Below, one piece after another: positions 43,143-45,683 of a stretch of 53,734 nt of DNA; positions within the stretch are counted from its first letter, which is position 1; every line of letters starts with the position of its first letter. The notes below the pieces were generated by a model that did no database searches, was not told the DNA's origin, and worked only from the letters and a program-made list of their open reading frames with translations. Location: NCBI GenBank assembly GCA_009886115.1, contig VFJJ01000053.1, positions 1-53,734 on the forward strand, given 5' to 3'. A program made the translations under genes and the position numbers. This stretch comes from Actinomycetota bacterium. GTDB taxonomy: Bacteria; Actinomycetota; Acidimicrobiia; IMCC26256; VFJJ01.

Positions 43143-43985
43143 ATGACGTTCGACGTGCTCGACTGCCACCATCACGTCGGCGATCCGATGACGGCCCTCG
43201 GGGGTGCGCTCGGTGAGGGTGCACCGGGTACCGACGACGCGGCACTGGCCGAGATGGCGACGTGGGAGCTCGTCGAACGCCTGCGGATCATGGACGCCGG
43301 CGGCGTGCGCCAGGCGATCGTGATCCCCGGTCACGGCTACCTCAGGCCCGACGGGATCGCCGATACCCGGCGCGTCAACGATGAGATCGCCACCTACCGT
43401 GACCGCACGCCCGACCGCTTCCCGGGCGCGGTGGGGATCGTCGAACCGCAGCACGGGATGGCCTCGTTCGGCGAGCTCGACCGGTGCCGCGCCGAGTTGG
43501 GTCTCGTCGGCATCAGCTTCCACACCCGGTTCCAGGGCGTGTCGCTCGACAGCCGTTGGATCACCAGGTACGTGGAACGCATGGGGGAGCTGGGTCTCGT
43601 GCCTGTCATCCACTGCATCCCCGAGTCGCCGGACGAGGCGCTGTGGAAGCTCCTCGCGCTGGCACGGGCCTTCCCCGATCTGCCGATGCTCGTCCTCGAC
43701 GCGTTCGAGGCCTACGAGACCACGCGAGAGATCTCGGCCATCGCCGACCTGGTGCCGGCCGTCTGCTTCGACACCAGCCTGTCGTACAACTTCGACTTCA
43801 TCGAGGAGTTCGCCCGACGCTTCGGAGCGGAGCGGGTCGTGTTCGGCACCGACCTCTACTCGGCGCCCCTGGGCCGACGCATCAGTCACCTCCTCCCCCA
43901 GATCCTCGAGTCGTCGCTCCCCGACTCCGACAAGGCCCTCATCCTCGGCGGCAACGCCCGACGCCTCTTCGGCCTGACGTCGTGA
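43143..43985 (+). CDS. Amidohydrolase-family (amidohydrolase_2 type) protein
   Basis: 280-residue TIM-barrel metal hydrolase or decarboxylase. It has the N-terminal metal motif DCHHHVG, a barrel His in VIHCIPE, MLVLDAFEAYE, and the C-terminal Asp in VFGTDLYS followed by ILGGNARRLFGL. These fit the ACMSD/2-pyrone-dicarboxylate hydrolase-like group. GGAGG lies 6 nt before the ATG. It is 87 nt upstream of the unrecognised gene and the UGSC selenoprotein and may belong to the same pathway. Confidence 0.87.
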   Translation: MTFDVLDCHHHVGDPMTALGGALGEGAPGTDDAALAEMATWELVERLRIMDAGGVRQAIVIPGHGYLRPDGIADTRRVNDEIATYRDRTPDRFPGAVGIVEPQHGMASFGELDRCRAELGLVGISFHTRFQGVSLDSRWITRYVERMGELGLVPVIHCIPESPDEALWKLLALARAFPDLPMLVLDAFEAYETTREISAIADLVPAVCFDTSLSYNFDFIEEFARRFGAERVVFGTDLYSAPLGRRISHLLPQILESSLPDSDKALILGGNARRLFGLTS

Positions 43986-44072: not shown

Positions 44073-45089
44073 ATGGGCACGGTGCAGGCTCCCCAGCACG
44101 AGTACCTCGATGTCGACGCCCTGGTCGACGACTACCACGAGCGAGGCTGGACCGACGGGCTCCCGATCGTCGCGCCCACGCCCGAGAAGGTCGAGCGCTT
44201 CCTCGCTGTGGCTGGCCTGCGAGGCGACGAGGTGCTGGGTCATGTGCCCACCCGCGAGGTGACCGTCACCGCCGAGCAGGTGGCGATCAACGCCGTGATG
44301 GCCGGATGCCGGGCCGAGTACCTCCCGACGGTGATCGCCGCCGTCCGGGCCCATCTCCACGAGAAGGCCAACTGCCACTCGACCACGGGGACGCTCTCGG
44401 GTGCGTTCCAGATGGTCATCGTGAACGGCCCGGCCCGCGCCGCGCTGGGTGTCGCGTGCGAGGGCGCGTGCTTCGGGCCGGGCTTCAGAGCCAACGCCAC
44501 CATCGGGCGAGCGCTGCGCCTGGTGATCCGCAACGCGTGCCGGGCGATTCCGGGGTTCCTCGACCGGGCCTCGTTCTCGACGCCGGCCCGCTACTCGATG
44601 TGCTTCGGCGAAGACGAGGAGGGCTCCGGGGCCACCTGGCGGCCGATGCACGTCGAGCGGGGCTTCGCGGCCACCGACTCCACGGTCACCGTGCAGTCGG
44701 TGATGGTCGTGGTACCGGCCACCGACTTCACGGCCCGGACACCGGAAGCCGTGTGCGACACGCTCGTGGCGACCATCAGATCGAAGGGCACGAGCGGCGA
44801 TGCCTTCCTCGAAGGCGCAGGCGAGGTCGTGGTCGTGATCGGCCCCGAGCACCGCCGCTTCTTCCTCGAGGCGGGCTGGTCGAAGGACGACATCCGCGCC
44901 AACCTGCACCCGCGCATCACCGCGCTCGATGGACCGGGACGGCCGGTCAAGTTCCCCGACACCGAGCCCGAGCGGCTCCTCCTGGTCGCCGCAGGGGGTC
45001 CCGGGATGGGAGAATCGTGGGTGTTCATCCCCCACCTGTCGCGAGCGATCACCGAACCCATCCGGACCGCGGTCACCACGTCACCCTGA
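44073..45089 (+). CDS. Unrecognised Cys-rich protein upstream of, and likely partner to, the UGSC selenoprotein
   Basis: 338 residues. Conserved-looking blocks are DDYHERGWTDGLPIVAPTPEKVERFL, AINAVMAGCRAEYLPTVIAAV, EKANCHSTTGTLSGAFQMVIVNGP and ACEGACFGPGFRANATIGRALRLVIRNAC. The five cysteines in the middle third suggest redox or metal chemistry. No membrane segment or signal peptide is seen. It ends 19 nt before the UGSC gene, so the two form an operon; a link to GrdB-like selenoprotein chemistry is conceivable but unproved. I do not recognise the family with confidence. Confidence 0.75.
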   Translation: MGTVQAPQHEYLDVDALVDDYHERGWTDGLPIVAPTPEKVERFLAVAGLRGDEVLGHVPTREVTVTAEQVAINAVMAGCRAEYLPTVIAAVRAHLHEKANCHSTTGTLSGAFQMVIVNGPARAALGVACEGACFGPGFRANATIGRALRLVIRNACRAIPGFLDRASFSTPARYSMCFGEDEEGSGATWRPMHVERGFAATDSTVTVQSVMVVVPATDFTARTPEAVCDTLVATIRSKGTSGDAFLEGAGEVVVVIGPEHRRFFLEAGWSKDDIRANLHPRITALDGPGRPVKFPDTEPERLLLVAAGGPGMGESWVFIPHLSRAITEPIRTAVTTSP

Positions 45090-45108
45090 ATCAGCTGGAG
45101 GAACGCCC

Positions 45109-45645
45109 ATGATCGTCGGCCTCGACCCCACGAGTGGTTCCCTCGACAAGCTGCCCGACAAGGGCGCCGCGCCACGCCCCAAGACCCTCGACGGTACCGT
45201 GATCGCCTTCATCGCCAACGGTCTCGGCCGCGGCGCCGATCTGATGGACGCTCTGTACGCGGAGCTCAGCCGCGACACCACCTTCGCCGGGTCGATCAAG
45301 GTCGTCAAGAACAGCGTGTCGATACCGCCAGAGCCCCAAGACTGGGAACGGATCCTCGCCGAGGCCACCGTCGCCGTCACCGGCTTCGGTGGTTGAGGCT
45401 CCTGCAGCGCCCGCAGTTTGCGGGACTCCGTGGAGCTGGAATGGAACGGCATCCCGTCGATCACCTTGGTGCACGAGGCCCTGCGGGGCTCGGCCGAGGC
45501 GATCTGCCGGGTGAGCGGCATGGCCGGCTACCCGTTCATCACCGTCGACTATCCGCACGTCCCCACGGCGATCTGGACCGACGACGAGATCGCCAGCATC
45601 GCCAAGGCCGTCGCGCCCGAGGTCCATCGGCAACTGTCAGCGTGA
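45109..45645 (+). CDS. UGSC-family selenoprotein (TGA at 45394 read as selenocysteine)
   Basis: 178 residues if TGA 45394-45396 is read as Sec (U96). The sequence around it is VTGFGG-U-GSCSARSL, exactly the UGSC motif that names this (seleno)protein family. Both flanks share one frame: upstream GTVIAFIANGLGRGADLMD and downstream SVELEWNGIPSITLVHEAL, YPFITVDYPH. A stem-loop follows the TGA. Sec96 and C99 (U-x2-C) would form a redox pair. GGAGG at 45097-45101, 7 nt upstream, fixes the start. Family members are thought to be thiol/selenol redox proteins, with unknown substrates. The real stop is TGA 45643-45645, supplied by a hairpin repeat. Confidence 0.9.
45394..45436 (+). promoter_or_regulatory. 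Selenocysteine codon and bacterial SECIS-like stem-loop
   Basis: After the TGA (45394-45396) an upper stem CCCGC (45410-45414)/GCGGG (45420-45424) closes the loop AGTTT; a lower stem GCTCC (45398-45402)/GGAGC (45432-45436) frames it. The loop G-U is 20 nt past the TGA, inside the 16-37-nt window known for bacterial SECIS elements that bind SelB. Confidence 0.75.
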
Positions 45646-45683
45646 GGGTCCGTATCCGGCCCCCCACGCTGACAGTTGGAGCC
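45634..45683 (+). repeat. Dispersed hairpin repeat, copy B
   Basis: Arms CTGTCAGCGT (45634-45643) and ACGCTGACAG (45666-45675) are a perfect 10-bp inverted repeat around a 22-nt spacer with CCGTATCCGG at its centre, then TTGGAGC. Copy A is at 2386-2440. The left arm supplies the stop codons of both the UGSC gene (plus strand) and coaE (minus strand). Confidence 0.8.

Follow-up and report, generated by a model that had tools for sequence, protein, structure and literature searches.

A UGSC-family selenoprotein gene with an in-frame TGA and its upstream partner gene in an acidimicrobial genome

In the 53,734-nucleotide contig analysed here (the window), a reading frame preceded by a strong ribosome binding site runs into a TGA and stays open beyond it. 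This raises the question whether the TGA ends a gene or is read as selenocysteine (Sec) and, if it is read, what the protein might do together with the gene directly upstream. Our comparison of sequences confirms that 45109-45645 is one gene whose TGA is read as selenocysteine. The gene is a further member of the UGSC selenoproteins, a family already published (PMC2398784, PMC13188914) and reported to be among the commonest selenoprotein families of aquatic metagenomes (PMC2398784, PMC9402790). The newer and more interesting part lies less in the gene itself than in its obligate partner and in a possible remote relation to GrdB, neither of which we found described in the published UGSC-family work covered. 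Searching the literature on selenoproteins in Acidimicrobiia gave nothing relevant. The coordinates of the features are collected in Table 1.

Table 1. Features of the UGSC locus in the window
Feature	Position	Strand	Remarks
Partner gene, 338 aa, uncharacterised family	44073..45089	+	stop 19 nt 5' of UGSC start; linked to all 8 UGSC copies
Ribosome binding site GGAGGA	45097..45102	+	6 nt 5' of ATG; read from sequence
UGSC selenoprotein gene	45109..45645	+	178 residues, Sec at residue 96; PF24696 across TGA, TGA/TGC relatives, AF2 pLDDT 92
TGA decoded as selenocysteine, U96 of UGSC motif	45394..45396	+	TGC in Cys homologues at same column; invariant family column
Full predicted SECIS stem-loop incl. 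lower stem	45397..45437	+	MFE -21.3 kcal/mol
SECIS hairpin, apical part; triloop GUU 45416-45418, 19 nt after TGA	45410..45424	+	pairing and covariation in 46 sequences

One gene across an in-frame TGA

The frame that opens with the ATG is followed, after the TGA, by 82 further codons up to a stop at 45643-45645, and re-reading it bore out the preliminary description on this point. The prediction that standard gene calling would yield two fragments was also right, as the open reading frames in question are 44929-45396 and 45418-45645. The length of the open frame was dropped as an argument for selenocysteine. At 70% GC, the plus strand of the window has 82 or more open codons after 26% of its TGA triplets, so that an open frame past a TGA is weak evidence and homology across the TGA must decide. 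The residues directly after the TGA are G-S-C, which places UGSC at residues 96-99, and the proposal that this is the motif of the UGSC family is supported by a family match on both sides of the TGA. The Pfam UGSC model PF24696 matches residues 5-177 of the joined protein with an E-value of 1.4e-38 (133.2 bits against a cut-off of 25). The stricter NCBIfam model NF041046 gives 84.5 bits, below its equivalog cut-off of 125, and the window protein is therefore a divergent member. Residues U96, G97 and C99 are invariant across 27 UGSC sequences, and alignment with family members, Cys forms included, gives a whole-length match.

The relatives decide in the same direction. None of the homologues in sister species stops at the TGA: six relatives within the order, 52-56% identical, have the same TGA and read on through it, while a seventh (45% identical) has TGC for Cys at this position. 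Measured on the TGA relatives, the better conserved half is the one that follows the TGA, with 57-66% identity as against 46-49% for the one that precedes it. Cys homologues with TGC in place of the UGA are found at five loci (L034, L035, L044, L057 and L099), and 78 loci with named hosts have Cys forms. The complete Sec machinery that selenocysteine decoding implies was sought in the source genome (G000; 5.4 Mb, 95.6% complete), and SelB, SelD, tRNA-Sec (66 bits) and a SelA adjoining SelB were all found. Across the class, tRNA-Sec is present in 76 of 83 genomes with a TGA-containing UGSC gene and in 3 of 11 with stop-free UGSC genes only (Fisher 7.6e-6), counted among the first approximately 150 matches listed. 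Four genomes of at least 95% completeness (G020, G032, G239, G251) have a TGA-type UGSC gene and no tRNA-Sec at the gathering score, which reflects either an assembly gap or a divergent tRNA-Sec.

The source genome carries eight UGSC genes (loci L009-L016, on contigs C1, C179, C154, C44, C193, C149 and, with two copies, C101), every one of them containing a single TGA and belonging to a clade of its own. This is the highest count among 296 genomes of the class, the next being 7 and 6. In a tree of 129 sequences the eight copies stand in eight separate places, and they are thus old paralogues or separate acquisitions rather than recent duplicates. Sec and Cys have been interchanged at least 9 times in this tree, which has several long branches and in which single placements are unsure. 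One copy (L013 / L028, G000:C193:148675-150339) is a fusion of UGSC and partner in one frame which keeps its TGA and is nested among Cys-type fusions; it looks like a Cys-to-Sec conversion with a SECIS of its own (loop CGUGA at +24).

A bacterial SECIS is a hairpin just 3' of the UGA with a G in the first two loop positions, 16-37 nt from the UGA. In the window the stem CCCGCA/UGCGGG (45410-45415 / 45419-45424) carries a GUU loop at +19 on a covarying helix. The two-part stem-loop with a GU-containing loop given in the preliminary description is hence present, lower stem included, at a distance of 19 nt and not 20. An Rfam scan of the window gave no match. Folding energy is not striking (z -1.8), and z is about 0 for some clear SECIS elements, so we set these scores aside as weak evidence and relied on covariation instead. 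In an ungapped alignment of 46 TGA genes, 98.9% of the cells of the six-pair helix around the triloop are paired, and pairing collapses when the alignment is slid by one column. Cells in which both bases have changed number 22, compared to 3.8 in shuffles, a value reached by 0 of 500 shuffles. The codons illustrate this: the hairpin is written GCC CGC AGT TTG CGG GAC in the window, GCG CGC AGT TTG CGC GAC within its clade, and TCG TGC AGT GTG CAC GAC or TCG TGG AGT GTC CAC GAC elsewhere. The step from GCC..CGG to GCG..CGC within the window clade consists of two synonymous changes that swap a C-G pair for a G-C pair, and the family as a whole varies its amino acids so that the helix is kept.

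The Ser codon in the loop is AGT at 45 of 47 TGA loci and AGC at 4 of 5 Cys loci; AGT makes up 3.5% of the Ser codons in the genes of the window. The hairpin is broken in Cys homologues, with a stem pair lost at one column in 4 of 5 Cys genes. Two further copies in the source genome deviate: L016 has one mismatch in the hairpin, and L013 has largely lost the standard helix, whose place may be taken by another hairpin, CUCAUG-CGUGA-CAUGAG, with a loop 24 nt past the TGA. The comparative evidence from these genes shows that the hairpin just 3' of the UGA directs Sec insertion by SelB.

The upstream gene as an obligate partner

The preliminary description had suspected a redox system formed with the upstream, Cys-rich gene. 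The link between the two genes is real, and far stronger than had been suspected, but Cys-richness is not its basis: only 2 of the 7 Cys residues (C79 and C177) are conserved in relatives, and we rejected the Cys content as a redox clue. A homologue of the partner lies close to 8 of 8 UGSC copies in the source genome, and at L013 the two share one reading frame. Among the 296 genomes of the class, 102 have both genes, 3 only UGSC and 2 only the partner (p 3e-73), and the copy numbers of the two are identical in 39 of 43 genomes of the order. The 78 named Cys loci come from sphingomonads, Frankia, relatives of Streptomyces, Nocardioides, haloarchaea and others; all of them have the partner directly beside UGSC in the same orientation, and at 34 the two are fused into a single open frame. 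In one genome (G226), a single UGSC gene is accompanied by two partner genes in tandem (L109, 6466-7578 and 7582-8592), and the genome has seven partner matches to five UGSC matches in total.

Comparison across these genomes shows the pairing of UGSC and partner to be obligate. Co-occurrence, linkage and the many natural fusions together give strong support to the partner as a large subunit and UGSC as a small subunit, and the two are probably halves of one redox enzyme that would act as a complex. The Global Ocean Sampling study of 2008 (PMC2398784) reports UGSC fused to a domain called only Unknown_1, which is probably the partner.

The partner has no match in sequence searches of Pfam, NCBIfam and the PDB, and PDB sequence searches with profiles of UGSC and partner likewise returned nothing. 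When 28 partner sequences were compared with Pfam at E 5, only chance-level matches appeared, and a pyruvoyl-forming subunit like GrdE or PrdA was not recognised among them. A kinship of the partner with GrdB was considered and rejected (hhalign E 0.61). The predicted structure of the partner (pLDDT 83) gives weak Foldseek matches to barbiturase and cyanuric acid hydrolase, which are cyclic amide hydrolases (E 1.6e-4, TM 0.21). A pocket with the conserved elements GWxDGLP, GRA and E180 is assigned to it.

Thioredoxin genes adjoin a handful of UGSC loci, and none lies in the window. A thioredoxin gene stands directly downstream of the fused gene in L136 (Streptomyces hyaluromycini, a Cys form) and L144, and a fusion of thioredoxin reductase and thioredoxin upstream in L170. 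The other neighbours of UGSC loci are catabolic, with SDR, CoA-transferase, acyl-CoA ligase and dehydrogenase, FMO-like monooxygenase and amidohydrolase genes. A conserved link to the amidohydrolase gene at 43143-43985 was rejected, as no homologue of its product was found beside the relatives; five of their loci have a different, Amidohydro_2-type protein. At two loci (L178, 4653-4925; L187, 1864-2181) a Cys-containing protein of about 90 aa, NifU-like by eye, is encoded beside a UGSC-partner fusion or a thioredoxin. In the window, a perfect 14-nt inverted repeat (45631-45644 / 45665-45678; CAACTGTCAGCGTG / CACGCTGACAGTTG) spans the region where UGSC and coaE, which converge, come to their ends and is probably a terminator shared by both, one that has no T run.

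Predicted fold and possible function

The AlphaFold2 model of the window protein has five alternating beta-alpha units, and U96 sits where a strand gives way to a helix. Among the matches listed by Foldseek are flavodoxin- and receiver-like folds, and none falls below E 0.001. The fold is thus predicted to be alternating alpha/beta, at odds with the thioredoxin-like fold assumed in reviews (PMC13188914). Profile comparison suggests a remote homology between UGSC and the Sec-bearing domain of GrdB from glycine reductase. A single hhalign comparison of profiles set UGSC against GrdB proteins from its own phylum, whose TGA lies in a U-G-T-G-T-R motif; the whole of UGSC aligns with the last approximately 200-215 GrdB residues and Sec falls on Sec (E 1.8e-4, probability value 23%). 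The score of 23.5 compares with a maximum of 12.4 after shuffling of columns, and with both motifs masked it is 21.0 compared to 9.0 (E 5.1e-4). Searched with the GRDB model PF07355 at E 5, 27 UGSC members gave no match. Four loci of the phylum (L064-L066, L068) are GrdB selenoproteins with a TGA. PF07355 stops immediately ahead of the Sec position and so leaves out the part of GrdB that bears Sec, which conceals a relation of that part to UGSC.

These observations can be joined in one explanation. SelB and Sec-tRNA read the UGA as Sec, steered by the downstream hairpin, and UGSC would serve as the catalytic small subunit of an enzyme whose large subunit is the partner. U96 lies where a helix begins, in an alternating alpha/beta domain that may be remote kin of the GrdB Sec domain, and its selenolate may attack or reduce a small organic substrate, which the partner would hold and select. 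C99 could then close a Se-S bond with U96 for thioredoxin to reduce. Divergent paralogues, each with its own partner, might serve different substrates in catabolic clusters. We put the probability of this explanation at about 0.85; to the mechanism we infer, the chain from selenolate attack to reduction by thioredoxin, we would give slightly less than an even chance. The pair is most likely a thioredoxin-reduced two-subunit seleno-reductase, a reading in which complex formation, thioredoxin as the reductant and the chemistry are inferred.

Other explanations have to be weighed against this one. If the TGA were a sequencing error or a genuine stop, the downstream half would be a pseudogene or a chance open frame, and open stretches of this length are indeed common after TGA at this GC content. 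This would have to account for eight TGA-bearing paralogues in a single assembly, as well as for the six TGA relatives, the hairpin covariation and the Sec machinery; the relatives already refute it, and we give it almost no weight. It is also conceivable that the selenoprotein is genuine and acts as a free-standing thioredoxin-like thiol or selenol oxidoreductase, with the partner merely a frequent neighbour. This agrees with the UxxC motif and its invariant C99 and with the literature, in which reviews place UGSC among proteins of thioredoxin-like fold (PMC13188914; PMC2398784). The confident model with its five beta-alpha units argues against it, since it has no thioredoxin-type beta hairpin and none of the 50 listed Foldseek matches is a thioredoxin-fold protein. 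A mere neighbour is also hard to square with co-occurrence in 102 of 107 genomes and fusion at 34 of 78 loci, and we regard this explanation as improbable.

Less improbable, though still unlikely, is that UGSC and partner form one two-protein enzyme in which Sec or Cys serves a non-redox step, for example nucleophilic C-N or C-S cleavage, and in which the partner is distantly related to cyclic amide hydrolases. The barbiturase-like Foldseek matches and the amidohydrolases beside several UGSC copies would fit. The TM-score of these matches is very low, however, the partner has no sequence match to cyclic amide hydrolases, and the use of Sec and the adjoining thioredoxin genes point to redox chemistry.

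With the often fused, obligate pair, the putatively GrdB-like domain and some thioredoxin neighbours, what was a 'hypothetical redox protein' becomes a two-subunit enzyme that can be tested for. Fused versions with Cys exist in cultivable strains, which makes the two-subunit idea approachable without selenium biochemistry. More tentatively still than the mechanism, UGSC and partner might represent a class that has so far gone unrecognised: seleno- or thiol-reductases of two subunits, reduced by thioredoxin and distant kin of the anaerobic glycine and proline reductases. Such a class, with Sec and Cys as well as split and fused forms and up to eight paralogues per genome, would have diversified through actinobacteria, sphingomonads and haloarchaea and would act on organic substrates in catabolic clusters.

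Comparison with known systems

The window gene shares with the UGSC family (PF24696, NF041046) the U/C-G-S/A-C motif, the length, the whole-length profile match and the mixture of Sec and Cys members; it differs in scoring under the NF041046 cut-off and in belonging to a divergent clade with the motif UGSCSARSLRD. Compared with the bacterial SECIS consensus (PMC13188914), the UGSC hairpin has a clade-specific triloop GUN inside AGUNU, closed by an A-U pair, at a fixed 19 nt. The reported UGSC/Unknown_1 fusion (PMC2398784) resembles the present pair in that UGSC is fused to another conserved domain. The UGSC partner is not recognised as a subunit like GrdE or PrdA of glycine and D-proline reductases. 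UGSC also differs from GrdB in being without its N-terminal part, and PF07355 does not match it. Like GrdB (PF07355) and PrdB, however, UGSC has its Sec at the end of a beta-strand in a U-G-x-x-T motif, followed by a helix and by LExxGIP and PHP-like motifs.
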